A DNA stretch of 64,000 nucleotides from Salminus brasiliensis (Eukaryota > Chordata > Actinopteri > Characiformes > Bryconidae): NCBI RefSeq assembly GCF_030463535.1, contig NC_132879.1, positions 32,793,925 to 32,857,924 of the forward strand, read 5' to 3'. The notes under the pieces were generated by a model, which was given only the letters and a program-made list of their open reading frames with translations, searched no databases and was not told where the DNA came from. Numbering within the stretch: position 1 is the first letter of the stretch; each line of letters begins with the position of its first letter. Below, piece by piece: positions 1 through 62,606 of the stretch. The position numbers and the translations under genes were made by a program.

Positions 1-60
1 CCCAATACCCCACCATGCTGATTTGAAATATAATCAACCATGGCATTGTTTTCTTTTTAT
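1..60 (+). pseudogene. U4 snRNA-like, 3' part, cut by window edge
   Basis: It opens with CCCAATACCCCACCATG and continues with GAAATATAATCAACCATGGC. These match the U4 central domain (CCCAATACCCCGCCGTG) and the segment before the Sm site. The 5' half lies outside the window; the duplicate at 25159-25290 shows it. The Sm-site region and 3' stem-loop are degraded. Confidence 0.65.
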
Positions 61-349
61 ACAGAATTAAAAGATTGTTTTAAGAATAAGCTTGAATTTT
101 GTTTCAGTATTATCTGTTGCAGTCAAGACAATTTGTTTGGCAGTAGGTTCAGCTTTGTGTTTCATCTCATCAAGTGGGTAAGAGACTATTAACTTGGTGG
201 TGAGTTGTTTTAAGACTGTTTTTATTGTTTTTTTTAATTTTTGCCCATAGTTACAAACACATTTTTTCCTCAAGGGACCCTTGCTTTGTTGTGTTAAGAT
301 TCACGTAATGTGTCCGGATTTTGTTATCATTTGTAACGCCACCTTCACA

Positions 350-370
350 ATGCAAAAATACCCATAATGC
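350..370 (+). promoter_or_regulatory. snRNA-type distal sequence element (octamer-like + SPH)
   Basis: ATGCAAAA (octamer-like, one base off ATGCAAAT) lies a few bases before ACCCATAATGC. The latter fits the core of the ZNF143/Staf SPH consensus YWCCCRNMATSCMYYRCR. The same pair recurs in most units of the U4-derived array. Confidence 0.6.
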
Positions 371-494
371 TTTTTCCTTTTGCTGTTTGCAACATCCCAT
401 GCCTTTCTTGTGCTTCATATTTTACTAATTGTGTTTTATTGCTGTTATTTTCTTAAAATTTTGTACAATTCTACAATTTGCTTTTGTTTTTTTG

Positions 495-545
495 ACTTGG
501 AAATATAATCAGCCATGGCAATTTTTTTTGTTCTGTAATGAGACT
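495..545 (+). pseudogene. U4 snRNA-like 3' segment
   Basis: GACTTGGAAATATAATCAG and then CCATGGCAATTTTTT match the U4 region just before and across the Sm site. The 5' half of this copy is deleted. Confidence 0.55.
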
Positions 546-835
546 TGAGTCTTTTGGTTTCGTCTCTCTTTTTTCTCACAGTCAAGGCAGTTTCTTGGCA
601 ATTAGTTTTTAGCTTGTGTGGGTATTATGTTTAGGTTCAGCTTTTGAGCTTTGCGTTCTGTCTCATCCAGTGGGTGAGAAAATAGTAACTTGGTGGTGAT
701 TTGGCTGGTTTTATTGATTTTTAATTTTTGGCCCATAGTAACAAACACATTTTTCTCAAGGGTCCCGTGCTTTGTTGTGTTAAGATTCCGGTAATGCTTT
801 TGGATTTTTTTGTCAATCGGAACAGCGACTTCACA

Positions 836-856
836 ATGCAAAAATACCCACAATGC
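836..856 (+). promoter_or_regulatory. snRNA-type distal sequence element, variant
   Basis: Same octamer-like plus SPH pair as at 350, with ACCCACAATGC in place of ACCCATAATGC. The next proximal element is at 1002 and the U4 5' half at 1071, so this element lies about 235 bp upstream of the RNA start. Confidence 0.55.
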
Positions 857-1001
857 TTTTCCCTTTTGCTTTCTACGACATGCCATGGCTTTTAAGTGCT
901 TCATATTTTACTAACTGTGTTTTCTTGCTGCAATTGTCTTAAAATGTATGTTGGTATAACGCAATTCGGAAAGTAATTCAGAAAGTAATTGAAATAACCT
1001 G

Positions 1002-1019
1002 GTTACCATTCTTGAAATC
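1002..1019 (+). promoter_or_regulatory. snRNA proximal sequence element (PSE)-like
   Basis: GTTACCATTCTTGAAATC resembles the vertebrate U6/U4 PSE (CTTACCGTAACTTGAAAG) with one base fewer in the middle. It begins about 68 bp upstream of the U4-like 5' end. Confidence 0.55.
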
Positions 1020-1070
1020 CTCTGTAAAGTAGGTGTACATATATAGAGTTCTAAGTAGATATAACTTCTG

Positions 1071-1135
1071 TATTTTTGGCAATATTGTAGAGTGTAAATT
1101 TAATATGAGGTGTGATCATTGCTGGTTAAAAATAC
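1071..1135 (+). pseudogene. U4 snRNA-like 5' half
   Basis: GGCAATATTGTAGAGTG and then GAGGTGTGATCATTGCTGG track the U4 5' stem-loop region. The copy breaks off after about 65 nt, whereas the K5-flank copy at 49288-49405 continues into the 3' half. Confidence 0.6.
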
Positions 1136-1435
1136 TGAAAGTTGCTGGTTGAAAATGGAGTTTGTATCTTTGGTTTCTTCAGGCTATTTGTGCTGCAATC
1201 AAGGCAGTATTATAGCAGTTTGGTTTTAGATTGTGTGGGCATTCTGTTTGGTGGGTTGTTTTAAGACTGCTTTTATTCATTTTTTTAATGTTTTTGCCTA
1301 TAGATATAATGAGATTTTTCTCAAGGGTCCTTTCCTTTGTTATGTTAAGATTCTCGTGATGTGTTTGGATGTTCTTGTCAATCACAACACCGCCTTGACA
1401 TTGCAAAAATAACCATACTTTTTCCTTTTGTTGAG

Positions 1436-8868: not shown

Positions 8869-8886
8869 GTTACGACTCTTGAAATC
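8869..8886 (+). promoter_or_regulatory. snRNA PSE-like element
   Basis: GTTACGACTCTTGAAATC. Its TTACG begins exactly 60 bp upstream of the U4-like 5' end at 8930, the normal vertebrate PSE spacing. Confidence 0.6.
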
Positions 8887-8929
8887 TTCAGTAAAGTCGA
8901 TGTACATATATAGTTCTGAGAAGGTCTGT

Positions 8930-9060
8930 ATTATTTTGCAGAGGCAGTATCATAGCTTGTGAGTTTAATCTGAGGTGTGATCATTGCTTGTTGAAAACTT
9001 TACCCACTATCCGACCAGGATGATTTGAAATATAGTCAACTATGGACATTTTTTTGTTAG
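8930..9060 (+). pseudogene. U4 snRNA-like gene, best-preserved copy
   Basis: U4 pairs with U6 snRNA in the spliceosomal U4/U6 di-snRNP. In order, this copy shows TTTTGCAGAGGCAGTATCAT (U4: TTTGCGCAGTGGCAGTATCG), GAGGTGTGATCATTGCTTG (U4: GAGGCGCGATTATTGCTAA), TTGAAAACTTTACCCA, then GAAATATAGTCAACTATGG before a T-rich Sm-like stretch. The whole 5' domain is colinear with vertebrate U4. CCCAATACCCCGCCGTG has decayed to CCCACTATCCGACCAGG, and the 3' stem-loop is not convincing. I call it a pseudogene or diverged variant. A duplicate is at 34115-34245. Confidence 0.7.
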
Positions 9061-9159
9061 TGTTAGTTAAGAATAAGCTTGAATGTTTTTTTCAGTGCTT
9101 TTTGTTGTAGTCAGTTTGGTTTTAGATTGTGTGGGTATTAAGTTTACGTTCAGCTTTTT

Positions 9160-23579: not shown

Positions 23580-24010
23580 TTAAGGGGCTACACTTGTCTT
23601 TGTTGGTTTCTTTAATCAAGGCAGGTTTTTTGGCAGTTGGGTTCTTTGCGTTCTTTCTCATTCAGTGGGTGAGAAACTAGTAACTTGGTGTTGAGTTGTT
23701 GAGTTGTTTTTAAATTTTTATCCATAGTTACAATCATATTTTATTCTCAAAGGTTTCTTGCTTTGTGGTAGTAAGATTTTCGTAATGAGTCCAGATTTTG
23801 TCGTCCATCGAAACACCGCCTTCAAAATGCAAAAATACCCATAATGCCTTTTTCTTTTGCTGTTCACAACATGCCATGGCTTTTAAGTGCTTCACATTTT
23901 ACTAATTGTGTTTTCTTGCTGCTATTTTCTTAGAATGTTCTTGTACAATAATAGTATGTTGGTATAATATTTTTGTAAATAATTTAGAAATTAATTGCAA
24001 ATATAAATAT
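23580..24010 (+). repeat. U4-derived array, spacer with distal element
   Basis: Spacer of the U4-derived array with a distal element at 23827-23847 (ATGCAAAA, then ACCCATAATGC). The unit should continue to a PSE and U4 body but is interrupted near 24010 by an L1/Tx1-like LINE fragment. Confidence 0.6.
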
Positions 24011-24640
24011 ATTACCCGGCGAGGCCTGTGCCCCCTCGACACGCAGTACTTCAACAAGTTCAAACCAGGCCTCATCCACTTGGACTGAAACTGAAACTTC
24101 AGGTATGACTGATGAAGAAATCAAGTCAGATATCCTAGCCTCACTGAGGGAAGATATATCCAAAATAATAAGGCAAGAATTGGAGTGTGTGTTTACTGAC
24201 AATTTTAATGCTCTACAAAGTGAGTTGATGTGGCGGGAGGTCTGTTGACATGGTCTGATGAAGTGATTACTGACTGCTGAAACTTGCCTTAAAAGCCAAG
24301 TTGAAACCCTTAAAGAAAAGAATGATGATTAGAGGGCAGAATGAGAAGGGGGAATGTTTGAATAGTTGGCGGGGGGTCTTAACTGTGTCTTGTCACAGCA
24401 CATGGACAGACAACCCGAATCGAAAGCCCCCCTCCCTAAAATGAGTAAGATGCTTAGACATCAATCTTTTGAACTGGGTCTTGTTGATTTGTTGAGAAGT
24501 AAATTCACAAGACACAGAGACTTTACACACTATTCATGTACAACTGCATCCTATTCCAGGATTGACTATTTTTGAACCCCCAAATTAGAGTTACATGGGG
24601 TAATAGACATTATGATACCTCTTATACTCTTTATTTAACT
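24011..24640 (+). mobile_element. L1/Tx1-like LINE fragment, internally deleted
   Basis: ATG 24105 opens MTDEEIKSDILASLREDISK, like the start of a fish L1-type ORF1. Without the rest of ORF1, the frame at 24366-24575 reads LNCVLSQHMDRQPESK, FELGLVDLLRSK and RDFTHYSCTTASYSRIDYF, the endonuclease segment of L1/Tx1 elements. Several kb between them are missing. The same deleted copy lies at 45453-46082 and 55675-56304, so it entered before the duplications. Confidence 0.6.
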
Positions 24641-25158
24641 CACTTTTTTTATTTCCTAATGCAAACTGGAAGAAGGAAAAAATGCTATGTATCGAAACAT
24701 TCTGTCTCATGACTTTAAAAAAATCTTCTGTATTTTTATCACAGATTTTTTGGCAGTTTGGTTTTAGGTTGTGTGGGCTTTCTGTTTAGGTTCAGCTTTT
24801 GAGCTTTGCGTTCTGTCTCATGCAGTGGATGAGAAACTAGTAACTTGGTGGTGATTTGTTTTAAGGCTTCCTTGCTTTGCCGCCTTCACAATGCAAAAAT
24901 ACCCATAATGCCTTTTCCTTTTGCTGTTTAAAACATGCCATGGCATTTAAGTGCTTCATATTTGGATAATTGTGTTTTCTTGCATGTATTTGCTTTGAAT
25001 GTTCTAGTACAATAATAGTATGTTTGTATAACGCAGTTCATAATTCAGAAAGTAAGTGTGATAAACTGGTTACCATTGTTGAAATCTGAAGTAAAGTAGG
25101 TGTACATATATACTTCTGAAAAGGGTCAGCGTTGTTTTGTTTTTTTTTTGTTTTTTTT

Positions 25159-25290
25159 GTAAAAGCATTATCAAAGCTGTTGAGTTTAATTCTGTGTGTG
25201 TTCATTACTGGTAAAAAGATCTACCCAATACCCCACCATGCTGATTTGAAATATAATCAACCATGGCATTGTTTTCTTTTTATACAGAAT
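25159..25290 (+). pseudogene. U4 snRNA-like pseudogene
   Basis: GTAAAAGCATTATCAAAGC, TTCATTACTGG, then CCCAATACCCCACCATG and CCATGGCATTG follow U4 order. The central CCCAATACCCC block is fully kept, but the 5' stem-loop is strongly mutated. A T-rich expansion has pushed the PSE (25069) to about 90 bp upstream. Confidence 0.65.
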
Positions 25291-26293
25291 TAAAAGATTG
25301 TTTTAAGAATAAGCTTGAATTTTGTTTCAGTATTATCTGTTGCAGTCAAGACAATTTGTTTGGCAGTAGGTTCAGCTTTGTGTTTCATCTCATCAAGTGG
25401 GTAAGAGACTATTAACTTGGTGGTGAGTTGTTTTAAGACTGTTTTTATTGTTTTTTTTAATTTTTGCCCATAGTTACAAACACATTTTTTCCTCAAGGGA
25501 CCCTTGCTTTGTTGTGTTAAGATTCACGTAATGTGTCCGGATTTTGTTATCATTTGTAACGCCACCTTCACAATGCAAAAATACCCATAATGCTTTTTCC
25601 TTTTGCTGTTTGCAACATCCCATGCCTTTCTTGTGCTTCATATTTTACTAATTGTGTTTTATTGCTGTTATTTTCTTAAAATTTTGTACAATTCTACAAT
25701 TTGCTTTTGTTTTTTTGACTTGGAAATATAATCAGCCATGGCAATTTTTGTTGTTCTGTAATGAGACTTGAGTCTTTTGGTTTCGTCTCTCTTTTTTCTC
25801 ACAGTCAAGGCAGTTTCTTGGCAATTAGTTTTTAGCTTGTGTGGGTATTATGTTTGGGTTCAGCTTTTGAGCTTTGCGTTCTGTCTCATCCAGTGGGTGA
25901 GAAAATAGTAACTTGGTGGTGATTTGGCTGGTTTTATTGATTTTTAATTTTTGGCCCATAGTAACAAACACATTTTTCTCAAGGGTCCCGTGCTTTGTTG
26001 TGTTAAGATTCCGGTAATGCTTTTGGATTTTTTTGTCAATCGGAACAGCGACTTCACAATGCAAAAATACCCACAATGCTTTTCCCTTTTGCTTTCTACG
26101 ACATGCCATGGCTTTTAAGTGCTTCATATTTTACTAACTGTGTTTTCTTGCTGCAATTGTCTTAAAATGTATGTTGGTATAACGCAATTCGGAAAGTAAT
26201 TCAGAAAGTAATTGAAATAACCTGGTTACCATTCTTGAAATCCTCTGTAAAGTAGGTGTACATATATAGAGTTCTAAGTAGATATAACTTCTG

Positions 26294-26358
26294 TATTTTT
26301 GGCAATATTGTAGAGTGTAAATTTAATATGAGGTGTGATCATTGCTGGTTAAAAATAC
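26294..26358 (+). pseudogene. U4 snRNA-like 5' half
   Basis: Duplicate of the 1071-1135 copy, with the same truncation after GAGGTGTGATCATTGCTGG. Confidence 0.6.
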
Positions 26359-26658
26359 TGAAAGTTGCTGGTTGAAAATGGAGTTTGTATCTTTGGTTTC
26401 TTCAGGCTATTTGTGCTGCAATCAAGGCAGTATTATAGCAGTTTGGTTTTAGATTGTGTGGGCATTCTGTTTGGTGGGTTGTTTTAAGACTGCTTTTATT
26501 CATTTTTTTAATGTTTTTGCCTATAGATATAATGAGATTTTTCTCAAGGGTCCTTTCCTTTGTTATGTTAAGATTCTCGTGATGTGTTTGGATGTTCTTG
26601 TCAATCACAACACCGCCTTGACATTGCAAAAATAACCATACTTTTTCCTTTTGTTGAG

Positions 26659-33925: not shown

Positions 33926-34325
33926 TTTTTTCCCTTTTTTCTTTGTGCTGTTTACAACATGCCACGGCTTTTAAGTGCTTCATATTTTACTAACTGTGTT
34001 TTCATGCTGCAATTTTCTTTAAATTTTCTTCAGAAAGTAATTGTGATAAACTGGTTACGACTCTTGAAATCTTCAGTAAAGTCGATGTACATATATAGTT
34101 CTGAGAAGGTCTGTATTATTTTGCAGAGGCAGTATCATAGCTTGTGAGTTTAATCTGAGGTGTGATCATTGCTTGTTGAAAACTTTACCCACTATCCGAC
34201 CAGGATGATTTGAAATATAGTCAACTATGGCCATTTTTTTGTTAGTGTTAGTTAAGAATAAGCTTGAATGTTTTTTTCAGTGCTTTTTGTTGTAGTCAGT
34301 TTGGTTTTAGATGGTGTGGGTATTA
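33926..34325 (+). repeat. Isolated U4 snRNA gene-derived unit (duplicate)
   Basis: Copy of 8700-9140 with about 45 bp lost between the spacer and the PSE (PSE at 34054-34071). Confidence 0.65.
34115..34245 (+). pseudogene. U4 snRNA-like gene, well-preserved copy
   Basis: Same body as 8930-9060. The only difference I noticed is ATGGCCATT for ATGGACATT near the Sm-site region, which is closer to the normal U4 GGCAATT. The PSE again begins about 60 bp upstream. Confidence 0.68.
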
Positions 34326-45012: not shown

Positions 45013-45452
45013 GTCTTTTTTTTAAGGGGCTACACTTGTCTTTGTTGGTTTCTTTAATCAAGGCAGGTTTTTTGGCAGTTGGGTTCTTTGCGTTCTTTCT
45101 CATTCAGTGGGTGAGAAACTAGTAACTTGGTGTTGAGTTGTTGAGTTGTTTTTAAATTTTTACCCATAGTTACAATCACATTTTATTCTCAAAGGTTTCT
45201 TGCTTTGTGGTAGTAAGATTTTCGTAATGCGTCCAGATTTTGTCGTCCATCGAAACACCGCCTTCAAAATGCAAAAATACCCATAATGCCTTTTTCTTTT
45301 GCTGTTTACAACATGCCATGGCTTTTAAGTGCTTCACATTTTACTAATTGTGTTTTCTTGCTGCTATTTTCTTAGAATGTTCTTGTACAATAATAGTATG
45401 TTGGTATAATATTTTTGTAAATAATTTAGAAATTAATTGCAAATATAAATAT

Positions 45453-46082
45453 ATTACCCGGCGAGGCCTGTGCCCCCTCGACACGCAGTACTTCAACAAG
45501 TTCAAACCAGGCCTCATCCACTTGGACTGAAACTGAAACTTCAGGTATGACTGATGAAGAAATCAAGTCAGATATCCTAGCCTCACTGAGGGAAGATATA
45601 TCCAAAATAATAAGGCAAGAATTGGAGTGTGTGTTTACTGACAATTTTAATGCTCTACAAAGTGAGTTGATGTGGCGGGAGGTCTGTTGACATGGTCTGA
45701 CGAAGTGATTACTGACTGCTGAAACTTGCCTTAAAAGCCAAGTTGAAACCCTTAAAGAAAAGAATGATGATTAGAGGGCAGAATGAGAAGGGGGAATGTT
45801 TGAATAGTTGGCGGGGGGTCTTAACTGTGTCTTGTCACAGCACATGGACAGACAACCCGAATCGAAAGCCCCCCTCCCTAAAATGAGTAAGATGCTTAGA
45901 CATCAATCTTTTGAACTGGGTCTTGTTGATTTGTTGAGAAGTAAATTCACAAGACACAGAGACTTTACACACTATTCATGTACAACTGCATCCTATTCCA
46001 GGATTGACTATTTTTGAACCCCCAAATTAGAGTTACATGGGGTAATAGACATTATGATACCTCTTATACTCTTTATTTAACT
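45453..46082 (+). mobile_element. L1/Tx1-like LINE fragment
   Basis: Copy of 24011-24640 with the same internal deletion (MTDEEIKSDILASL near 45547; YSRIDYF ending at 46014). Confidence 0.58.
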
Positions 46083-46598
46083 CACTTTTTTTATTTCCTA
46101 ATGCAAACTGGAAGAAGGAAAAAATGCTATGTATGGAAACATTCTGTCTTATGACTTTAAAAAAATCTTCTGTATTTTTATCACAGATTTTTTGGCAGTT
46201 TGGTTTTAGGTTGTGTAACTTTCTGTTTAGGTTCAGCTTTTGAGCTTTGCGTTCTGTCTCATGCAGTGGGTGAGAAACTAGTAACTTGGTGGTGATTTGT
46301 TTTAAGGCTTCCTTGCTTTGCCGCCTTCACAATGCAAAAATACCCATAATGCCTTTTCCTTTTGCTGTTTAAAACATGCCATGGCATTTAAGTGCTTCAT
46401 ATTTGGATAATTGTGTTTTCTTGCATGTATTTGCTTTGAATGTTCTAGTACAATAATAGTATGTTTGTATAACGCAGTTCATAATTCAGAAAGTAAGTGT
46501 GATAAACTGGTTACCATTGTTGAAATCTGAAGTAAAGTAGGTGTACATATATACTTCTGAAAAGGGTCAGCGTTGTTTTGTTTTTTTTTGTTTTTTTT

Positions 46599-46730
46599 GT
46601 AAAAGCATTATCAAAGCTGTTGAGTTTAATTCTGTGTGTGTTCATTACTGGTAAAAAGATCTACCCAATACCCCACCATGCTGATTTGAAATATAATCAA
46701 CCATGGCATTGTTTTCTTTTTATACAGAAT
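46599..46730 (+). pseudogene. U4 snRNA-like pseudogene 1 of K4-K5 array
   Basis: Copy of 25159-25290. The central CCCAATACCCCACCATG is kept. Confidence 0.63.
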
Positions 46731-47212
46731 TAAAAGATTGTTTTAAGAATAAGCTTGAATTTTGTTTCAGTATTATCTGTTGCAGTCAAGACAATTTGTT
46801 TGGCAGTAGGTTCAGCTTTGTGTTTCATCTCATCAAGTGGGTAAGAGACTATTAACTTGGTGGTGAGTTGTTTTAAGACTGTTTTTATTGTTTTTTTTTA
46901 TTTTTGCCCATAGTTACAAACACATTTTTTCCTCAAGGGACCCTTGCTTTGTTGTGTTAAGATTCACGTAATGTGTCCGGATTTTGTTATCATTTGTAAC
47001 GCCACCTTCACAATGCAAAAATACCCATAATGCTTTTTCCTTTTGCAACATCCCATGCCTTTCTTGTGCTTCATATTTTACTAATTGTGTTTTATTGCTG
47101 TTATTTTCTTAAAATGTTCTTGTACAATAGTAGTATGTTGGTATAATGCAATTATACCATTCTTGAAATCCTCTGTAAAGTAGGTGTACATGTATAGTTC
47201 TAAGAAAAGCAA

Positions 47213-47345
47213 GCTTTCTTTTGCAGCGGCTTTATATAATCTGTGAGAGTAATCTGAGGTATGGTAATACCTTGTTCAAAACTTTACCCAAAACCTTCCC
47301 ACCCTTAATTGAAATATATTGTGTCATGGCAAATTGTGTTAGTTT
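47213..47345 (+). pseudogene. U4 snRNA-like pseudogene 2 of K4-K5 array
   Basis: TTTTGCAGCGGC, AATCTGAGGTATGGTAATACC, TTCAAAACTTTACCCA, then GAAATATATTGTGTCATGGC. PSE at 47154, 58 bp upstream; distal element at 47013. The promoter spacing of this copy is almost canonical, but the body has many substitutions. Confidence 0.62.
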
Positions 47346-47757
47346 TTTGGGGGGTTTCTCAGGCTCTTTTTGCTGCAAGGTAGATTTTATTGGTGGTTTG
47401 GTTATAGATTGTGTAGGCATTTTGTTTAGGTTCAGCTTTTGAGCTTTGCGTTTTATCTTATCCAGTGGGTAAAAAACTATTAACTTGGTGGTGAGTTACT
47501 TGAAGACTGTTTTAATTGAATTTTACATTTTTTAAAATGATCCATAAATGCAAAAATACCCATAATGATTTTTTTCCTACTGCCATGCCTTTTAAGTGCT
47601 TCATAATAAACTAATTGTGTTTTCTTATAATAATAATTATAAAATAATAGTATGTTGGTACAAGGCAATTTGGAAAGTAATTCAGAAAGTAAATGTGATA
47701 AATTGGTTACCATTCTTGAAATCCTGAGTAAAGTAGGTGAACATTTTTTGTGGGGTT

Positions 47758-47895
47758 TTTTTTCTGCAAAGGCAATGTCATAGTTTTTGAGTTTAATTCA
47801 GTGCATGGTCATTACTGTTTAAAATATTTACTCAATACCCCACCATGATGGTTTGAAATATAGTCCATCATGGCAATTTGTGTTTTTATAGAGAC
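47758..47895 (+). pseudogene. U4 snRNA-like pseudogene 3 of K4-K5 array
   Basis: CTGCAAAGGCAATGTCATAG, CATGGTCATTACTG, CTCAATACCCCACCATGATG, GAAATATAGTCCATCATGGC, then AATTTGTGTTTTTATAGAGAC. This is the only copy with a hint of the 3' stem sequence (GAGACT). Distal element at 47548 and PSE at 47706. Confidence 0.65.
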
Positions 47896-48557
47896 TCAAA
47901 AATCTTTTCGTTTTTTTGGCAGTTTGGTTTTAGATTGTGTGGCCAACGTGTTTAGTTTCAGGTTTTGAGCTTTGCTTTTCATCTTATCCAGTGGGTAAGA
48001 AACTTGGTGGAGAGTTATTTTAAGACTGATTTTATTATTTTTTAAATGTTTGTGCCCATAGTTACAATCACAGTCAACACAGTCTTTTGGCAGTTTGTTT
48101 TTAGGTTGTGTGTGCATTATATTTATGTTCAGGTTTTGAGCTTTGTGTTTTGTCTCATCTAGTGAGTAAGAAACTAGTAACTTGGTTGTGAGTTGTTTTA
48201 AGACTGGTTTTATTGTTGTTGTTTTATTGGTGTTGCCCACAGTTATAAACATTTTTTTCCTCAAGGGTCCCTTGCTTTGTTGTGGTAAGATTCGCATGCG
48301 TATAGATTTTGTTGTCAATTGTATCCCCGCCTTCACAATGCAAAAATACCCATAATGCTTTTTCCTTTTGCGTTCTACGACATGCCATGTCTTTGTATTG
48401 CTTCATATTTTCCTAATTGTATTTTTTTGCTGCTAATTACTTAGAATCTTTCATGTACAACAATAGTAAGTTGGAACAACACAATTTGGAAAGTAGTTGA
48501 GAAAGTAATTGCTATAAACTGGTTACCATTCTTGAAATCCTCAGTACATTAGGTGTG

Positions 48558-48598
48558 TATATATCTATATATATCTATATATATATATTTATATATTT
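48558..48598. repeat. (TA)-rich microsatellite between PSE and U4 body
   Basis: Imperfect TATATC/TA repeats. They have stretched the PSE-to-U4 distance to about 100 bp in this unit, which should disable snRNA transcription. Confidence 0.8.
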
Positions 48599-48624
48599 CC
48601 TTTTAAGAAGATTTAGTGTTTTTT

Positions 48625-48730
48625 TACTTAGAACCAATGTCATGGTTTATGAGATTAATTCGAGGCGTTGCTATTTGTGGTTGAAAACTTTTTTTGACTT
48701 GGAAATATAATCAGCCATGGCAATTTTTGT
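48625..48730 (+). pseudogene. U4 snRNA-like pseudogene 4 of K4-K5 array
   Basis: AACCAATGTCATGGTTTATG, TTCGAGGCGTTGCTATTTG and GGTTGAAAAC match the U4 5' domain. It then jumps to GACTTGGAAATATAATCAG and CCATGGCAATTTTTG, having lost about 20 nt of the CCCAATACCCC block. Confidence 0.62.
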
Positions 48731-49287
48731 TATTCTGTAATGAGACTTGAGTCTTTTGGTTTCGTCTCTCTTTTTTCTCACAGTCAAGGCAGTTTCTTGG
48801 CAATTTGTTTTTAGCTTGTGTGGGTATTATGTTTAGGTTCAGCTTTTGAGCTTTGCGTTCTGTCTCATCCAGTGGGTGAGAAAATAGTAACTTGGTGGTG
48901 ATTTGGCTGGTTTTATTGATTTTTAATTTTTGGCCCATAGTAACAAACACATTTTTCTCAAGGGTCCCGTGCTTTGTTGTGTTAAGATTCCGGTAACGCT
49001 TTTGGATTTTTTTGTCAATCGGAACAGCGACTTCACAATGCAAAAATACCCACAATGCTTTTCCCTTTTGCTTTCTACGACATGCCATGGCTTTTAAGTG
49101 CTTCATATTTTACTAACTGTTTTCTTGCTGCAATTGTCTTAAAATGTTCTTGTACAATAGTAGTATGTTGGTATAACGCAATTCGGAAAGTAATTCAGAA
49201 AGTAATTGAAATGACCTGGTTACCATTCTTGAAATCCTCTGTAAAGTAGGTGTACATATATAGAGGTCTAAGTCGATATAAGTTCTG

Positions 49288-49405
49288 TATTTTTGGCAAT
49301 ATTGTAGAGTGTAAATTTAATATGAGGTGTGATCATTACTGGTTAAAAATATTACACAATACTTTGCCAGCATGTTTGGAAATATAGTCAGCCAAGACGT
49401 ATTTT
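49288..49405 (+). pseudogene. U4 snRNA-like pseudogene 5 of K4-K5 array
   Basis: GGCAATATTGTAGAGTG, GAGGTGTGATCATTACTGG, ACACAATACTTTGCCAGCATG, then GAAATATAGTCAGCC. The K1 and K3 arrays keep only its 5' half. Confidence 0.62.
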
Positions 49406-49714
49406 ACATAGTTTTTGCAGGGAATTGAATGTTTATGTGAAAATGAAGTTTGTATCTTTGGTTTCTTCAGGCTATTTGTGCTGCAATCAAGGCAGTTTTA
49501 TAGCAGTCTGGTTTTAGATTGTGTGGGCATTCTGTTTGGTGGGTTGTTTTAAGACTGCTTTTATTCATTTCTTAATATTTTTGCCTATAGATACAATGAC
49601 ATTTGTCTCAAGGGTCCTTTCCTTTGTTATGTTAAGATTCTCGTGATGTGTTTGGATGTTCTTGTCAATCGCAACACCGCCTTGACATTGCAAAAATAAC
49701 CATACTTTTTCCTT

Positions 49715-50572
49715 TTGTTGAGCACGGAGAACACAAAGAACACAAATATGACTAAGAAAGAGCACAAAGAACACACACATAAACCCATACATGAGTACAA
49801 ATATGGAAATACATTAATAAATAAATGTAGACATACAGAAACAGATGAATGCCAAAATGTGGCGAAATACATAAATAAAATAAAATAATAATAATAAAAA
49901 AAAAAATAGAGAAATTAATGTGAAATTGTGGAAATACCAAAGTAAAGATGTGGAAGTATGTGACTGATTTTACTGACTGCAGTGATTCATGTCCTAAAGT
50001 AACTAGACACCCTTTCTTCTGAATAAATTCAGCTGCTTTACGGCATCTGACACGGATGTTTCCATAGAAACGCACTGACCAATAGAACAGGACTCTATAA
50101 AGAAACTTTGTGGTGACAGATCCGGTTTCTAAATCTAGTCTCAGATCATACAGATCTGATGCTAAACTTTAGTATGAGTAAGGCCTTAATTCATCAGGCC
50201 TGGCTGTATTTAATCAGCTCAGTCTGATCACTGCAATTTGCTTCATGTGTTGCTGAGGTAAATGAAGGGGCATAGCACTGTACACAGCACTGTGTGTCCA
50301 TACAGTCCTATACAGCCAATGAAGAGACTGACCTCAGTGACCCGAGTCCTCCTCCATTGTGAGGTCATGTCGATGACATCACAGAGCCTATAAAAAGGCA
50401 GGTTCCCCTTCACTGGCTCAGTTCGGATTCAGCAGCTCGAGAGACGCTTCATTCCTGCGTTCACACTGACACTGACGCCATTTAGCTGACGCTCTTCTCT
50501 AGAACCATCTTATCTAGAACCAGAAAGAGGTTCTACTTTTGCTTCTCCTTTCAAATAGGACAGAGTAGAAAA
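49715..50572 (+). promoter_or_regulatory. K5 kinase gene 5' flank and promoter, short leader type
   Basis: TGACATCA at 50374-50381 and TATAAAAAGG at 50389-50398. After the shared TCTTATCTAGAACCAGAAAG the leader differs: 28 bp (CTCCTTTCAAATAGGACAG and so on) stand where K1-K4 have about 76 bp. The split from the K4 sequence ends at the start codon. Confidence 0.65.
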
Positions 50573-52353
50573 ATGCAAACCAAAGAAGTCCTGAGGAGTT
50601 TGGGCTACGAGGTGGTGGATTTCATTGGTAAAGGGAGTTACGGTGAGGTTAAGCTGGCCACATCTCAAAGGCACTCCAACCATGTGGCCATCAAAATAAT
50701 GCACCGCAGGCTGGCATCACATATTTTTGTCTCTAAACTTCTGCCCCGGGAACTGGCCATTCTGAAAAGAGTAAAGCACCCTCACATTGTTCAGGTGCAT
50801 GAAATCTTTGAGATGCCAAACGGACAGGTGTTTATTGTGATGGAGGCTGCCGCAATGGATCTTCAACAGAAGATCTGGGAGCTCGGCCGCATTCCCATTG
50901 GCCAAGCAAAAATGTGGTTCTCACAGCTGCTCAGCGCTGTGGCCTATCTACATCAGCAGAACATTGTCCATCGTGATCTTAAATGTAAAAACGTTCTGCT
51001 GACTGCTAACGACCAAGTCAAATTAACTGACTTTGGTTTAGGCCGTTTTTCAAGGGGCTTTCCTGACTTAAGCAAGACCTATTATTGCACTCCCGAGTAT
51101 GGTGCACCTGAGGTGCTTTTGGAAAAACCCTATGATCCAAAAAAAAGTGACGTGTGGAGTCTAGGTATTATCTTTTACTCCATGGTCACCGGATCTACAC
51201 CCTTCAAAGTTAACAGTTTGAAGAGTCTCCTACGTGTCCAGCGAGAACCCTTGGTGTTCCCACGTAGGCTCACAGTGGAGGAGCCCTGTCGGGCCTTCAT
51301 ATCTTATATGCTGCAATACGACCCCTCCACTCGGCCATCTGTGACAGAGGTGGCACAGCACCCTTGGCTGCAGCCGAGGCAGGAACGGTAAGTAAACCAC
51401 TGTGCAGGTATACATACATGAAGAACATTTTGAATGGGTCACTCAAAGTAAAGAGCTGTTTTGCAAATAGGTAACATACAGTATTAGTTCACTAACGATA
51501 AGTACACTAACACATTGCTTCTGTACTGTCTCCAGGGTTATTGGCAGGTTTGTGGTGGTGCCCGTTGAGGATCTGTGTCCAGACGTCAACCCACTTGAAA
51601 CGTCAGAGGAAGAGTCTCAGTCTTCCTTCTCTTTGAACAGTAACATAGACAGTATATCATCTTCTGCCTCTGAAAATGGGCTGGTGTTTTTCAGCACTCC
51701 TCAGTCGACAGAGGAAGAGTCTCCGTCTTCTTCTTTAAGCAGAGACGTAGACGTTCTCTCATCTCATGGTGTCAGATGCGAGACTCTGATGCCTGAGCAG
51801 AAAGGCGACAGCAATGGAGCTGGTGCAAGTCTGACTTGCCAAAGGGTAGAGGCTGTGGAGGAGCACTATGGTTGCGTTAGCTGTAGTCCTGTTTGTGCTG
51901 CTATTAAAAGGGCAGCTAATGCTTATGTCAAGGCACCAATTCTCAGAGCCTCCCGGTCACTCCGACGGAGGATGAGGAAGTTATTCAGCGTTAACTCTGT
52001 GGTCCATGACACCACCTCTATTTCCCAGCAGAGTGCTCCTCATTCTGCTTCCCCTTCAGATGCTCATGCTTGTTTGTGTTCTGAGCAGAGACTCAAGGAT
52101 GTGACTGTAGATGTCCCTCTCCATGGGCTAGTGGTGGAGACAGCATCTGTTCTCCCACAGCCCACAGTATGGAAAGGAACCAGGAGGCTGAGGTTCCCTA
52201 AATTTAAGGTATGTTAGGCAAGTGTTGAGCGATCGTCACAGCCTCAGATTTTATACTTTAAATATTTGCTAGAAATGTTTCAGTTGATTCATATGTGTCA
52301 TTTTGTCTCGCCAACAGATCCTGAAGAAGACGAAGATGATTCACCCATTGTAG
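50573..52353 (+). CDS. K5: TSSK-like serine/threonine protein kinase, three exons
   Basis: Exons are 50573-51387, 51536-52208 and 52318-52353. The 507-residue protein is identical to K4 and K6, yet its promoter and leader are of a different type from K4. Kinase domain complete; Ser423 in the basic patch. Confidence 0.82.
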
Positions 52354-52384
52354 ACATCTAGCACGGCCCTGGTGATAACATACT

Positions 52385-54205
52385 ACCTTTACACAATTTA
52401 TTGGTCATTTATACGTTGTTTTGACCAGAGGAGGATGGGTCCCCCTAGTGAGTCTTGGTTCCTCCCAAGGTTTCTTCCTCCAGCTCTGAGGGAGTTTTTC
52501 CTTGCCACTGTCGCCTTTGGCTTGCTCACTTGGGGTTCATGTTGTATTTATTTATTTTTATTTGTCCTATTTCCGGATTTTTGTAAAGCTGCGTTGCACC
52601 ATGAGGTTGTAAAAAGCGACATACACATCATTTGGAGTTGACTTGTTATGTAAGGGGTAGGAGGGACACTGTCTAAACTGATTGAGATGCCTCTGTAATG
52701 TTGCATGGACCTCAGGAACAGTGCCTCTGGACTGGCAATCCAAGGTTGTGGTCCTCATTAAGAAAGTGAACCAGAGAGTGTGTGGAAACTTTTGAAGCAT
52801 CACACCTCGGTTTCCCTCTAGAAAGTTTATGCCAGGGTAGTGCAAAGATGAGACTCAGGAGGAGAAATGCAGATTCTGTCCTGACCATGAAATTTTGGAC
52901 CAGCTCTTCACTCTCTTTTGGATAGTTGAGGAGACATGGGAGTTCAGCAGTCCTGTCTACATGTTTTGTGGACTTGAAGGCTCATGACCATGTTCTCTGA
53001 GACATCTTGTGAGAAGTGCTCTAGGTGCATGGGATGCAAGGGTCGGTGATGCGAGCTGTGCAGTCCTTGTACTCACTGAGTCAGAGCTGTGTCCATATTT
53101 TCAGCACTAAGTAAAGCTTGTTGAGTGTTGCCGTTGGTCTTTGTCAGGGCTGTGCCATGTGTCTGCTCCTGTTTGTGATATTCATAGACGGGACAGCAAG
53201 GCGTAGCCAGGGGCAGGATGGTCTACGGGGGCCTTCAACGCACACTTGACTAGTTTGTAGCTAAGTGTATAGCGGTTGGTATGAGAATCAGCACCTTCAA
53301 GTCTGAGGCCACAGTGGTATCCCACTCACCTTTCATGACCCAGGACTTGCTAGAGGGATTGTATCTTATAGTATCTTATCTTAAGAATTAAATAGGGGTG
53401 TGAATCTCTCTGTGTCAGGCGATTTGATTCAATTCTGATTTTTGAGGTCACGATTCAATTCAGAAACAATTTTTGATTCAGGAACCATTTTTCAATTTAA
53501 ATGGTCTTTAAATTTGATTTAAATTAAGTGATTGACGAAGAAGAAATGACATTGTTGTCATGGTGGGTCAGGCCAGACACAGAGGGATGAACACTCCCAG
53601 ACATGGGTGCAATGCAAGTACTTTAATAACACAATAGAAAATCATACAAAGAGCAAACTAAAGCAAACAAAGCAGCAACTAACGAGAATAAACAGGAAAA
53701 CAACGTAAACTCGACAAACTAGAGGGCGAACACAAAGCACACCTGAGACCGGGGGGCTCTAGGAGCTGAGCTAGATGAGCAGGGCAGGGAACAGGGGGAA
53801 CCAGCCGCAGAACCAAAAACGGCTAGGCCGACCAAACCTGGCAACGCAGTGTGGAAAAGGGTCGCCTAGCTGGAGCGAGGGTCGTGGGTATAAGGTGGGA
53901 GTGAGCGAAAGCATCTCGCTAAACACATGAACATGAAACACGACACTGAACCGACACAATGAACCAAACATGAACCAAACACACATGAACGCAACTGAAC
54001 CAGAACCGAGTCACTGAATAGATACAAGAACAGAAACATAACAAAAAGACCTTAAGTGGGCGGCGGCTCGGAATCGCTGCATTCTTGCAAGTAGAAAATG
54101 GAGCACTTTGCTTTATTATTTTGAAGTTTACTTTAGTCTGTTTATGTTCAAAACGGAAAATAAAAAATGTAGTTAATTATGTATTTCAGTGTATTGTGGT
54201 TATTC

Positions 54206-54233
<28 letters not shown>
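52385..54233. repeat. K5 3' flank repeat train
   Basis: Teleost module 52385-52635, RTE-like fragment 52682-53354, AT-rich 53374-53555, LTR-like 53556-54081 and (TG)n 54206-54233 (two bases shorter than after K4). Confidence 0.5.
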
Positions 54234-54237
<4 letters not shown>

Positions 54238-54434
54238 GTGTATAGCTATGTTCTTTGTTTAAACTCTGTCACTGATAAAGTGGAGATATACATTTTTTAC
54301 ATTATAAATATAAAATTATTTTATATATATCACATATATCAACAATGTGAACCATACAGCTGTAGCCTATAAGTGCTGTGTGGTTTTGCAGAATTCATGT
54401 GTCAATGGCATTGGGGGCCAGAAAATATGGTTTC

Positions 54435-55234: not shown

Positions 55235-56820
55235 GTCTTTTTTTTAAGGGGCTACACTTGTCTTTGTTGGTTTCTTTAATCAAGGCAGGTTTTTTGGCAG
55301 TTGGGTTCTTTGCGTTCTTTCTCATTCAGTGGGTGAGAAACTAGTAACTTGGTGTTGAGTTGTTGAGTTGTTTTTAAATTTTTACCCATAGTTACAATCA
55401 CATTTTATTCTCAAAGGTTTCTTGCTTTGTGGTAGTAAGATTTTCGTAATGCGTCCAGATTTTGTCGTCCATCGAAACACCGCCTTCAAAATGCAAAAAT
55501 ACCCATAATGCCTTTTTCTTTTGCTGTTTACAACATGCCATGGCTTTTAAGTGCTTCACATTTTACTAATTGTGTTTTCTTGCTGCTATTTTCTTAGAAT
55601 GTTCTTGTACAATAATAGTATGTTGGTATAATATTTTTGTAAATAATTTAGAAATTAATTGCAAATATAAATATATTACCCGGCGAGGCCTGTGCCCCCT
55701 CGACACGCAGTACTTCAACAAGTTCAAACCAGGCCTCATCCACTTGGACTGAAACTGAAACTTCAGGTATGACTGATGAAGAAATCAAGTCAGATATCCT
55801 AGCCTCACTGAGGGAAGATATATCCAAAATAATAAGGCAAGAATTGGAGTGTGTGTTTACTGACAATTTTAATGCTCTACAAAGTGAGTTGATGTGGCGG
55901 GAGGTCTGTTGACATGGTCTGACGAAGTGATTACTGACTGCTGAAACTTGCCTTAAAAGCCAAGTTGAAACCCTTAAAGAAAAGAATGATGATTAGAGGG
56001 CAGAATGAGAAGGGGGAATGTTTGAATAGTTGGCGGGGGGTCTTAACTGTGTCTTGTCACAGCACATGGACAGACAACCCGAATCGAAAGCCCCCCTCCC
56101 TAAAATGAGTAAGATGCTTAGACATCAATCTTTTGAACTGGGTCTTGTTGATTTGTTGAGAAGTAAATTCACAAGACACAGAGACTTTACACACTATTCA
56201 TGTACAACTGCATCCTATTCCAGGATTGACTATTTTTGAACCCCCAAATTAGAGTTACATGGGGTAATAGACATTATGATACCTCTTATACTCTTTATTT
56301 AACTCACTTTTTTTATTTCCTAATGCAAACTGGAAGAAGGAAAAAATGCTATGTATGGAAACATTCTGTCTTATGACTTTAAAAAAATCTTCTGTATTTT
56401 TATCACAGATTTTTTGGCAGTTTGGTTTTAGGTTGTGTAACTTTCTGTTTAGGTTCAGCTTTTGAGCTTTGCGTTCTGTCTCATGCAGTGGGTGAGAAAC
56501 TAGTAACTTGGTGGTGATTTGTTTTAAGGCTTCCTTGCTTTGCCGCCTTCACAATGCAAAAATACCCATAATGCCTTTTCCTTTTGCTGTTTAAAACATG
56601 CCATGGCATTTAAGTGCTTCATATTTGGATAATTGTGTTTTCTTGCATGTATTTGCTTTGAATGTTCTAGTACAATAATAGTATGTTTGTATAAAGCAGT
56701 TCATAATTCAGAAAGTAAGTGTGATAAACTGGTTACCATTGTTGAAATCTGAAGTAAAGTAGGTGTACATATATACTTCTGAAAAGGGTCAGCGTTGTTT
56801 TGTTTTTTTTTGTTTTTTTT

Positions 56821-56952
56821 GTAAAAGCATTATCAAAGCTGTTGAGTTTAATTCTGTGTGTGTTCATTACTGGTAAAAAGATCTACCCAATACCCCACCA
56901 TGCTGATTTGAAATATAATCAACCATGGCATTGTTTTCTTTTTATACAGAAT
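56821..56952 (+). pseudogene. U4 snRNA-like pseudogene 1 of K5-K6 array
   Basis: Copy of 46599-46730. Confidence 0.62.
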
Positions 56953-57434
56953 TAAAAGATTGTTTTAAGAATAAGCTTGAATTTTGTTTCAGTATTATCT
57001 GTTGCAGTCAAGACAATTTGTTTGGCAGTAGGTTCAGCTTTGTGTTTCATCTCATCAAGTGGGTAAGAGACTATTAACTTGGTGGTGAGTTGTTTTAAGA
57101 CTGTTTTTATTGTTTTTTTTTATTTTTGCCCATAGTTACAAACACATTTTTTCCTCAAGGGACCCTTGCTTTGTTGTGTTAAGATTCACGTAATGTGTCC
57201 GGATTTTGTTATCATTTGTAACGCCACCTTCACAATGCAAAAATACCCATAATGCTTTTTCCTTTTGCAACATCCCATGCCTTTCTTGTGCTTCATATTT
57301 TACTAATTGTGTTTTATTGCTGTTATTTTCTTAAAATGTTCTTGTACAATAGTAGTATGTTGGTATAATGCAATTATACCATTCTTGAAATCCTCTGTAA
57401 AGTAGGTGTACATGTATAGTTCTAAGAAAAGCAA

Positions 57435-57567
57435 GCTTTCTTTTGCAGCGGCTTTATATAATCTGTGAGAGTAATCTGAGGTATGGTAATACCTTGTTCA
57501 AAACTTTACCCAAAACCTTCCCACCCTTAATTGAAATATATTGTGTCATGGCAAATTGTGTTAGTTT
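57435..57567 (+). pseudogene. U4 snRNA-like pseudogene 2 of K5-K6 array
   Basis: Copy of 47213-47345, with the same promoter spacing. Confidence 0.62.
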
Positions 57568-57979
57568 TTTGGGGGGTTTCTCAGGCTCTTTTTGCTGCAA
57601 GGTAGATTTTATTGGTGGTTTGGTTATAGATTGTGTAGGCATTTTGTTTAGGTTCAGCTTTTGAGCTTTGCGTTTTATCTTATCCAGTGGGTAAAAAACT
57701 ATTAACTTGGTGGTGAGTTACTTGAAGACTGTTTTAATTGAATTTTACATTTTTTAAAATGATCCATAAATGCAAAAATACCCATAATGATTTTTTTCCT
57801 ACTGCCATGCCTTTTAAGTGCTTCATAATAAACTAATTGTGTTTTCTTATAATAATAATTATAAAATAATAGTATGTTGGTACAAGGCAATTTGGAAAGT
57901 AATTCAGAAAGTAAATGTGATAAATTGGTTACCATTCTTGAAATCCTGAGTAAAGTAGGTGAACATTTTTTGTGGGGTT

Positions 57980-58117
57980 TTTTTTCTGCAAAGGCAATGT
58001 CATAGTTTTTGAGTTTAATTCAGTGCATGGTCATTACTGTTTAAAATATTTACTCAATACCCCACCATGATGGTTTGAAATATAGTCCATCATGGCAATT
58101 TGTGTTTTTATAGAGAC
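57980..58117 (+). pseudogene. U4 snRNA-like pseudogene 3 of K5-K6 array
   Basis: Copy of 47758-47895. Confidence 0.63.
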
Positions 58118-58846
58118 TCAAAAATCTTTTCGTTTTTTTGGCAGTTTGGTTTTAGATTGTGTGGCCAACGTGTTTAGTTTCAGGTTTTGAGCTTTGCTTT
58201 TCATCTTATCCAGTGGGTAAGAAACTTGGTGGAGAGTTATTTTAAGACTGATTTTATTATTTTTTAAATGTTTGTGCCCATAGTTACAATCACAGTCAAC
58301 ACAGTCTTTTGGCAGTTTGTTTTTAGGTTGTGTGTGCATTATATTTATGTTCAGGTTTTGAGCTTTGTGTTTTGTCTCATCTAGTGAGTAAGAAACTAGT
58401 AACTTGGTTGTGAGTTGTTTTAAGACTGGTTTTATTGTTGTTGTTTTATTGGTGTTGCCCACAGTTATAAACATTTTTTTCCTCAAGGGTCCCTTGCTTT
58501 GTTGTGGTAAGATTCGCATGCGTATAGATTTTGTTGTCAATTGTATCCCCGCCTTCACAATGCAAAAATACCCATAATGCTTTTTCCTTTTGCGTTCTAC
58601 GACATGCCATGTCTTTGTATTGCTTCATATTTTCCTAATTGTATTTTTTTGCTGCTAATTACTTAGAATCTTTCATGTACAACAATAGTAAGTTGGAACA
58701 ACACAATTTGGAAAGTAGTTGAGAAAGTAATTGCTATAAACTGGTTACCATTCTTGAAATCCTCAGTACATTAGGTGTGTATATATCTATATATATCTAT
58801 ATATATATATTTATATATTTCCTTTTAAGAAGATTTAGTGTTTTTT

Positions 58847-58952
58847 TACTTAGAACCAATGTCATGGTTTATGAGATTAATTCGAGGCGTTGCTATTTGT
58901 GGTTGAAAACTTTTTTTGACTTGGAAATATAATCAGCCATGGCAATTTTTGT
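58847..58952 (+). pseudogene. U4 snRNA-like pseudogene 4 of K5-K6 array
   Basis: Copy of 48625-48730, again preceded by the TA-rich stretch. Confidence 0.61.
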
Positions 58953-59509
58953 TATTCTGTAATGAGACTTGAGTCTTTTGGTTTCGTCTCTCTTTTTTCT
59001 CACAGTCAAGGCAGTTTCTTGGCAATTTGTTTTTAGCTTGTGTGGGTATTATGTTTAGGTTCAGCTTTTGAGCTTTGCGTTCTGTCTCATCCAGTGGGTG
59101 AGAAAATAGTAACTTGGTGGTGATTTGGCTGGTTTTATTGATTTTTAATTTTTGGCCCATAGTAACAAACACATTTTTCTCAAGGGTCCCGTGCTTTGTT
59201 GTGTTAAGATTCCGGTAACGCTTTTGGATTTTTTTGTCAATCGGAACAGCGACTTCACAATGCAAAAATACCCACAATGCTTTTCCCTTTTGCTTTCTAC
59301 GACATGCCATGGCTTTTAAGTGCTTCATATTTTACTAACTGTTTTCTTGCTGCAATTGTCTTAAAATGTTCTTGTACAATAGTAGTATGTTGGTATAACG
59401 CAATTCGGAAAGTAATTCAGAAAGTAATTGAAATGACCTGGTTACCATTCTTGAAATCCTCTGTAAAGTAGGTGTACATATATAGAGGTCTAAGTCGATA
59501 TAAGTTCTG

Positions 59510-59627
59510 TATTTTTGGCAATATTGTAGAGTGTAAATTTAATATGAGGTGTGATCATTACTGGTTAAAAATATTACACAATACTTTGCCAGCATGTTTG
59601 GAAATATAGTCAGCCAAGACGTATTTT
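59510..59627 (+). pseudogene. U4 snRNA-like pseudogene 5 of K5-K6 array
   Basis: Copy of 49288-49405. Confidence 0.61.
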
Positions 59628-59936
59628 ACATAGTTTTTGCAGGGAATTGAATGTTTATGTGAAAATGAAGTTTGTATCTTTGGTTTCTTCAGGCTATTTG
59701 TGCTGCAATCAAGGCAGTTTTATAGCAGTCTGGTTTTAGATTGTGTGGGCATTCTGTTTGGTGGGTTGTTTTAAGACTGCTTTTATTCATTTCTTAATAT
59801 TTTTGCCTATAGATACAATGACATTTGTCTCAAGGGTCCTTTCCTTTGTTATGTTAAGATTCTCGTGATGTGTTTGGATGTTCTTGTCAATCGCAACACC
59901 GCCTTGACATTGCAAAAATAACCATACTTTTTCCTT

Positions 59937-62575: not shown

Positions 62576-62606
62576 ACATCTAGCACGGCCCTGGTGATAA
62601 CATACT

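Follow-up and report, generated by a model that had tools for sequence, protein, structure and literature searches.

How a series of U4 snRNA-like units, promoter elements included, came to stand between copies of a protein kinase gene is the question raised by this stretch of DNA (the window, 64,000 nt). The answer that we favor, with a probability of roughly 75%, is that a dead tandem U4 snRNA locus has been passively copied along with a TSSK6-like kinase gene. An earlier note had proposed a decayed U4 array with promoter layout beside kinase genes, and Rfam searches, blastn, and scans for the DSE and PSE bore this out. Five U4-like bodies lie in 45015..49710, all on the + strand and each preceded by a DSE (an octamer-like plus a ZNF143-type element) and then a PSE; all five, the number originally proposed, are found by blastn with the genome's own U4. 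Neighboring DSEs within the interval follow one another head to tail, 535-1063 bp apart, and five of the seven DSE-like sites have both a PSE and a body (Table 1). Similar arrays occupy three more intervals, as had also been claimed.

Table 1. Positions of U4-like units, array blocks and kinase genes in the window.
Feature	Position	Strand	Remarks
DSE 1	45269..45289	+	PSE and body replaced by insert from ~45445
DSE 2	46332..46352	+	DSE pattern scan
PSE 2	46511..46528	+	TATATA at 37 nt from PSE start
U4-like body 2, decayed	46591..46729	+	Rfam 19.4 bits; blastn
DSE 3	47013..47033	+	DSE pattern scan
PSE 3	47154..47171	+	TGTATA at 37 nt from PSE start
U4-like body 3, decayed	47215..47354	+	Rfam 33.0 bits; blastn
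DSE 4	47548..47568	+	DSE pattern scan
PSE 4	47707..47724	+	Without TATA
U4-like body 4, top scorer of interval	47758..47894	+	Rfam 42.8 bits; blastn
DSE 5	48338..48358	+	DSE pattern scan
PSE 5	48523..48540	+	TATATA at 35 nt from PSE start, within TA repeat
U4-like body 5	48620..48745	+	Rfam 35.5 bits; internal deletion; Sm-like AATTTTTG retained
DSE 6	49038..49058	+	DSE pattern scan
PSE 6	49220..49237	+	TATATA at 37 nt from PSE start
U4-like body 6, decayed	49281..49403	+	Rfam 19.3 bits; blastn E 9e-10
DSE 7, decayed (5 mismatches)	49688..49708	+	Without PSE or body
Solitary unit	8870..9069	+	PSE at 8870, best-kept U4 body 8930-9069; without DSE
Second copy of solitary unit	34055..34257	+	PSE, U4 body 34115-34257; without DSE
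Array block, truncated by window start	1..1421	+	DSE at 350, 836; decayed DSE 1401
Array block	23827..26644	+	DSE at 23827, 24891, 25573, 26059; decayed DSE 26624
Array block	55491..59930	+	Near-identical to 45269-49708, offset 10,222 nt
TSSK6-like kinase gene	50573..52353	+	Three exons (read from splice signals), 507 aa
Other kinase copy starts in window	2321, 18913, 27553, 40349, 60795		

Chance resemblance in AT-rich repeats is the simplest alternative, and it would draw on the base composition of the array (AT-rich, ~33% GC) and on two interval bodies, 46591 and 49281, which in a smaller Rfam search reached only E ~0.3 each. It is refuted by the shuffle controls and by the E values, and its probability is close to nil. 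The DSE pattern ATGCAAAAATACCCATAATGC (≤3 mismatches) occurs 18 times in the window and 0 times in 100 dinucleotide shuffles, and the PSE (≤3 mismatches) occurs 15 times against a shuffle mean of 0.43, so the motifs are not random scatter. Moreover, 12 of the 15 PSEs have, at a fitting distance, both a DSE and one of the bodies on the list used, where random placement averages 0.115; the remaining three comprise the two solitary units, which have no DSE, and PSE 25070, whose body was absent from that list. The Rfam U4 (RF00015) search of the window reached E 2.5e-11, and blastn against the genome's own U4 reached E 5e-14. Across the 1.07-Gb genome, all 58 matches to the DSE pattern, in a scan covering units that carry it, lie on the + strand in C2:32,616,558-32,863,428 (247 kb), a stretch occupied by a cluster of TSSK6-like kinase genes; viral contigs gave 0 matches to the pattern. 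Within the DSE, CCCATAATGC is one base off CCCATTATGC, a motif given in PMC7154149. With a DSE, and a PSE near -60, the predicted elements fit a SNAPc-dependent snRNA promoter.

The bodies are homologous to U4 and decayed. The two solitary bodies, 8930-9069 (61.8 bits) and 34115-34257 (61.4 bits), pass the Rfam gathering score of 46, which is missed by all five interval bodies, by the copies of 47758, 48620 and 47215 at +10,222 nt, and by first-block body 1064 (16.8 bits, E 0.54). Four points had been named for this search, and it succeeded at 8930 and 34115 only, with 47758 (42.8) below gathering and 49288 weak (19.3), though blastn finds both. The genome's own U4 L001 matches the five interval bodies at 64-69% identity over 99-145 nt (blastn E 5e-14 to 5e-8), and solitary body 8930 is homologous to the genome's own U4 as well. 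Since identity to that U4 is 61-73% in the six window bodies tested, we take the window bodies to be pseudogenes. U6 pairing, the 5′ stem-loop and the Sm site are partly or wholly gone in most of the eight bodies tested. With human U6 as the partner, U4/U6 stem II pairing in these eight beats mononucleotide shuffles at 8930, 34115 and 47215 (p 0.012-0.018), and stem I pairing does so in no body except 1064 (p 0.05). The 5′ stem-loop exceeds shuffles only at 8930/34115 (p 0.02-0.03), in a weak test, since human U4 as the control did no better than p 0.09. The exact Sm site AAUUUUUG is found in one of the eight (48620), 8930/34115 carrying ATTTTTTTG, and 3′ boxes, scored with a consensus, were no better than shuffles in six of six bodies (P 0.14-0.72). 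With CpG sites placed using human U4, these sites showed 1.18 vs 0.80 changes per column; CpG decay accounts for part of the body decay, not all of it. Some apparent shared founder changes relative to human U4 were discarded when L001 showed that the normal U4 of this species has the same bases.

The stem II pairing and the Sm-like sequence kept at 48620 could also be read as signs of diverged yet working U4 variants, germline-specific ones for example. Zebrafish has maternal snRNA variants, of U1 and U6, whereas its two U4 sequences on chromosome 4 are classed as somatic (PMC11075544). We consider working variants very improbable: no single one of the eight bodies has an exact Sm site, a DSE, a 5′ stem-loop and U6 pairing together, a DSE is lacking at the two best (8930, 34115), and a comparison of five units shows the body to be conserved no better than the spacer (49/59 and 25/38 vs 51/100 changes per column).

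A better candidate for the working gene lies elsewhere on the same contig. Exact copies of the canonical U4 5′ end number 82, all at C2:38.64-38.96 Mb, 5.8-6.1 Mb from the window, in an array of ~2.58-kb spacing, tandem on one strand, whose 42 scored copies reach 121-130 bits. The two canonical kinds, L001 (129.9 bits) and L003 (127.5 bits), are identical at 124/128 positions; the best body in the window scores 61.8. Twelve canonical promoters of two types were examined, those of L001 and of 11 nearly identical array copies; every one has a ZNF143-type core at -217/-220 together with a PSE-like sequence near -61 (-61/-62 in L001 and L003). The window units resemble this array in the U4 body, the ZNF143-type core near -220, the PSE-like sequence near -61 and the one-strand tandem arrangement, and the element order and near-normal spacing claimed for them hold, with DSE starts 202-282 nt and PSE starts 51-97 nt before the body in the interval. 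They differ in being 0.5-1.1 kb apart, in scoring 17-62 bits, and in that many carry TATATA. Beyond the bodies, blastn of window against canonical sequence gave TA-repeat matches, plus one match extending ~85 nt into a 3′ flank at 61%. In contrast to the freely decaying relic bodies, the RNA of the canonical array is almost unchanged.

The kinase has a Pfam Pkinase domain, and its closest solved relative is TSSK6 (E 2.8e-86, the first non-TSSK6 match following at E 2.9e-44); among ncbifam models it matched general kinase models, all under their cut-offs. All 22 kinase copies counted in the fetched stretch have a first exon that is open and has its splice donor, a 23rd copy being broken; DSE units precede 11 of the 22, and a solitary unit precedes 10 of the other 11. 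The segment 40346-53778 equals 50570-64000 at 99.98% identity, and the co-amplification suggested at the outset is therefore real: the dead array was recently copied together with the kinase gene. "Satellite-like", also used of the array in the earlier note, is the wrong term. Each of 11 blocks holds only 4-8 DSE units, which are 76-84% alike outside DSE and PSE, and the array is for that reason better described as a relic gene cluster.

Vertebrate genomes contain many U snRNA retropseudogenes, which would favor retroposed or SINE-like U4 pseudogenes as the source of the bodies. Promoter and spacer were copied too, however, the untranscribed DSE and PSE belonging to the repeated unit, and none of seven bodies examined has an A-run of ≥6 within 80 nt downstream, so that duplication as DNA is indicated; with the 58 exact DSE matches all in one 247-kb stretch as well, retroposition seems scarcely credible. 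Under the favored reading of a dead U4 locus, old units of DSE, PSE, body and spacer would have been duplicated as DNA, head to tail, beside the TSSK6-like kinase gene, presumably by unequal crossing-over. Their RNA bodies would then have lost U4 function, with working U4 supplied by the separate 2.58-kb tandem array. Later and larger duplications of the kinase gene, in 10.2-kb and ~25-kb units, would have carried the dead array along, and probably nothing now depends on it. This would make a small-RNA relic the passenger of a protein-gene expansion. U4 snDNA clusters have reportedly been studied as fish chromosome markers, with U2 and U4 snDNA mapped in Apareiodon and Parodon (Zebrafish 2023). 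Among titles and abstract openings listed by one open-access library, no description of a dead tandem U4 cluster co-amplified with a kinase was found. Birth-and-death evolution of fish 5S rDNA and U2 snDNA (PMC3123226, PMC3464664) likewise involves tandem units that vary between copies, whereas here the gene is U4 and the relic cluster is linked to a protein-coding gene and has been amplified again along with it. The zebrafish chromosome 4 snRNA region similarly brings many snRNA genes and expanded gene families together on one chromosome; unlike here, its maternal genes are U1 and U6, and the two U4 sequences, described as somatic, are found in a different region (PMC11075544).

Conservation of the promoter elements complicates this account. 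Among five old units, changes per column numbered 2/21 in the DSE and 3/18 in the PSE against 51/100 in the spacer. Across eight lineages the DSE (2/21) differed from the spacer (67/139) at P 0.003 and the PSE at P 0.07; with the upstream spacer as reference, the DSE gave 1/21 vs 64/150, and the best-conserved 21-nt windows of the 625 in the unit alignment fall in the DSE. Between old units the DSE thus seems, on these alignments, to change about five times more slowly than the spacer, and the PSE less clearly so. Such slowing counts against passive decay, which does not predict it, and would suit an exapted promoter array in which the U4 bodies are dead and DSE and PSE are kept as putative ZNF143/Oct-1/SNAPc docking sites for chromatin or kinase expression. 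The arrays do sit upstream of the kinase, the last DSE being 1.46-1.54 kb from the ATG, and according to PMC7154149 ZNF143 acts as a looping factor and is required by human U4C. We nonetheless judge exaptation unlikely. Eleven of the 22 kinase copies have no array, yet their first exons are no less open, and all 22 copies alike are preceded by the TATAAAAAG/TGACATCA motifs. Between recent blocks, DSE plus PSE change about as fast (5/216) as the insert inside the array (19/736), with the body (24/599) below the spacer (239/3053) and above the insert, in a block-to-block alignment where block C seems inflated through paralogous alignment. Furthermore, all 10 blocks scanned contain a decayed DSE of the 49688 type, and including it weakens the DSE test to P 0.03; the DSE and PSE boundaries were set by a reader already aware of the conservation, and the units were chosen for having a DSE. 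Because the five-unit and block-to-block tests disagree on the rate of body vs spacer, only an absence of clear constraint is claimed for the RNA body. An enlarged conservation test (body 158/614, PSE 8/90, DSE 1/126) was dropped, as it grouped non-homologous units after deletions and inflated the body and PSE rates, and an earlier DSE test with a lower P was set aside for non-homologous columns in its flank. The array may serve as a natural record of the death of a tandem snRNA locus, in which the RNA decays freely and transcription-factor sites seem to last, and for ZNF143/Oct-1 site scans it provides a block of strong predicted sites without a working gene.

Many units also carry a TATA-like element, which is unexpected for a normal U4 gene and counts against the dead-U4 account. 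TATATA lies exactly 37 nt from the PSE start at 30 of 56 PSE sites (8 of 23 distinct sequences), a spacing that we take to be that of human U6. Within 33-42 nt of the PSE start, 36 of the 56 sites have exact TATATA, 10 have one mismatch and 10 have none; by distinct sequence (n = 23) the figures are 11, 6 and 6. In none of the genome's 12 examined canonical U4 promoters does a TATA follow the PSE, so that the layout of the array promoters is U6-like rather than typical of U4, and the absence of TATA downstream of the PSE that defines the Pol II snRNA class does not hold for the array PSE sites. The promoter layout originally described is right as to DSE and PSE, which are in place; to be added are the TATATA and an octamer that in every intact DSE departs at its last base from the consensus. 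TATA is described as a switch to Pol III (PMC9652321; PMC3499247), and a scan of 65 salmon U6 promoters found it in every one (PMC11541246). A tentative and rather unlikely reading starts from an ancestral U4 gene unit with a newly gained Pol III-type core (DSE-PSE-TATA): this switch would have killed the U4, while DSE and PSE would have persisted without the RNA, forming a protein-binding array multiplied with the TSSK6-like kinase gene. U4 output would then have been lost because vertebrate Pol III would terminate at the Sm-site T-run. Both the retention of snRNA promoter elements without their RNA and the killing of a Pol II snRNA gene by gain of TATA become testable here. Type 3 Pol III promoters of U6 and 7SK share the order DSE, PSE, then TATA with the array, which differs from them in lacking TATA at 10 of 56 sites and in having its elements ahead of a U4-like body.

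The interval at window positions 45015..49710 is best read as a dead tandem U4 locus. Of the four points at which the earlier note had placed U4 bodies, 8930-9069 (61.8 bits) and 34115-34257 (61.4 bits) exceed the gathering score of the Rfam U4 model (RF00015), while 47758 and 49281 (49288 in that note) pass a relaxed threshold only; all five bodies of the interval were also recovered by blastn with the genome's own U4 gene. Each of these five is preceded at 202-282 nt by a DSE (octamer-like plus ZNF143-type; ATGCAAAAATACCCATAATGC type) and at 51-97 nt by a PSE (TTACCATTCTTGAAATCC type), in agreement with the near-normal promoter spacing proposed before. With up to three mismatches allowed, the window holds 18 DSEs (0 in 100 shuffles) and 15 PSEs (0.43 in shuffles), and all window DSEs, PSEs and bodies lie on the + strand. 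Five of the seven DSE-like sites in the interval belong to full units; at 45269 an insert occupies the place of the PSE and body, and the site at 49688 is decayed and stands alone.

Features of the window and of the related kinase clusters
Feature	Position	Strand	Remarks
U4-like body	47758	+	42.8 bits, full-model match (relaxed Rfam threshold)
U4-like body	48620	+	35.5 bits, full-model match (relaxed Rfam threshold)
U4-like body	47215	+	33.0 bits, full-model match (relaxed Rfam threshold)
U4-like body	46591	+	19.4 bits, E about 0.3, full-model match (relaxed Rfam threshold)
U4-like body	49281	+	19.3 bits, E about 0.3, full-model match (relaxed Rfam threshold)
U4-like body, first block	1064	+	only 16.8 bits (Rfam U4)
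Insert within array	45445-46180		replaces first unit's PSE and body; putative LINE ORF1-like frame
TGACATCA/TATAAAAAG motif site before kinase	50373-50400		
TSSK6-like kinase expansion	C1, C2, C3, C8, C11, C12, C16, C18, C26		clusters 64-71% identical to window kinase

The RNA bodies are decayed. With human U4 and U6 sequences as references, pairing with U6 exceeded shuffles for stem II in 3/8 bodies (8930, 34115, 47215) and for stem I at 1064 alone (p 0.05). The 5' stem-loop did so in two (8930, 34115), but the human control itself gave p 0.09. An exact Sm site is retained only at 48620, and none of the eight bodies tested combined all U4 features. The best bodies, 8930 and 34115, have no DSE. 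Thirteen changes, several at CpG sites, are common to at least five of six bodies, so that decay may either have started in a common ancestor or have struck identical sites in parallel.

The canonical U4 genes of the same genome provide the reference. Their 5' 28-mer occurs 82 times without mismatch (1 on +, 81 on -; genes changed within those 28 bases are missed), all in C2:38,642,028-38,957,838, where the 42 best Rfam U4 matches also fall; two examples reach 129.9 and 127.5 bits. The canonical promoters examined, which comprise 11 near-identical array copies and the differing L001, all (12/12) have a ZNF143-type core at -217 or -220. A PSE-like sequence lies at -61 in L001 and, in L003, the second kind of canonical gene, at -62, with the array promoters agreeing. 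The DSE and PSE positions expected for this species were thus read from its own promoters. L001 is the lone + strand copy, and its promoter is unlike the 2.58-kb array type. The two canonical kinds agree at 124/128 positions, and the window bodies are 61-73% identical to canonical U4 (n=6), which, with the Rfam and blastn homology and the ordered DSE and PSE, bears out a decayed U4 array among kinase genes. Outside the bodies, blastn between canonical and window sequence gave only TA-repeat hits and one match that extends ~85 nt into a 3' flank (61%); because so little is found there, the split looks old.

In the whole genome (1.066 Gb, 103 contigs), 58 sites match the DSE pattern ATGCAAAAATACCCAYAATGM exactly, all on + and all inside C2:32,616,558-32,863,428, in 11 blocks of 4-6 each; the window occupies C2:32,793,925-32,857,924. 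Within 271,925 contiguous joined bases including the window, the pattern occurs 61 times with up to two mismatches, and there are 22 kinase copies, every one with an open first exon and a GTAAGT donor. All 22 carry TATAAAAAG and TGACATCA (CRE-like) about 180-250 nt before the ATG, a layout seen in testis genes. Units with a DSE (4-8) precede 11/22 copies, a solitary PSE-body unit precedes 10 of the 11 array-less copies, and the first copy has neither; an extra partial copy with one stop lies beyond this stretch, at C2:32,873,312. The six window copies are predicted from splice signals to have 3 exons and encode 507 aa, with TSSK6 as nearest relative (E 2.8e-86). Among at least 142 scored kinase-domain matches in the genome, many in tandem clusters, the closest relatives outside the cluster are 76% alike (C2:7.7 Mb). 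Because kinase clusters occur elsewhere, the kinase family is expanding on its own, with the U4 relic attached to one of its clusters.

Co-amplification with the kinase, also suggested earlier, is upheld by the DSE units before half of the copies and by recent duplications of 10.2 kb (99.98% identity) and larger. The U4 units would have multiplied by DNA-level duplication, and the dead array may then have been carried passively in recent duplications of the kinase gene. In the open-access literature, the only part covered, no comparable dead tandem U4 case was found.

The main rival is that the array was exapted as a promoter array, a reading on which rates of change bear. Between five old units, chosen for having a DSE whose motif had been picked by look, changes per gap-free column were 2/21 in the DSE (Poisson P 0.0015) and 3/18 in the PSE (P 0.019), against 51/100 in the spacer between them and 49/59 and 25/38 in the bodies. 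Across eight lineages the values were 2/21 (P 0.003), 4/18 (P 0.07) and 67/139; the DSE gave 1/21 against 64/150 in upstream spacer, and 6/21 against 87/145 (P 0.03) with the decayed unit included. Against constraint, between recent blocks DSE plus PSE (5/216) changed at the rate of the array insert (19/736), a yardstick alignable in 10/10 other blocks, and less than spacer (239/3053). Because the recent rate matches that of the insert, these comparisons are evidence for constraint in the older phase only. A second conserved spacer stretch, at window 48832-48859 (mean identity 0.95), contains AGCTTTGCG, identical to the nine bases with which canonical U4 begins, at ~190 nt before a DSE.

Many relic units also differ from the canonical U4 promoters in carrying TATATA. 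An exact copy lies 33-42 nt past the PSE start at 36/56 cluster sites (30 at exactly 37), with 10 further sites one mismatch away and 10 without; as the units are related, this comes closer to a single observation than to many, and the pattern was noticed only after the fact. For the 23 distinct PSE sequences the counts are 11 (8 at exactly 37), 6 and 6; the array background per 16-nt stretch is 0.027 for exact and 0.154 for one-mismatch copies. TATATA after the PSE is absent from all 12 canonical promoters, whose best hexamer is two mismatches off. In vertebrates, TATA after the PSE confers Pol III specificity (PMC9652321; PMC3499247).

LINE fragments lie between kinase copies at window 10769-16279, with endonuclease (Exo_endo_phos_2) and reverse transcriptase (RVT_1) matches, and at 35886-39998, which resembles the former in self-comparison.
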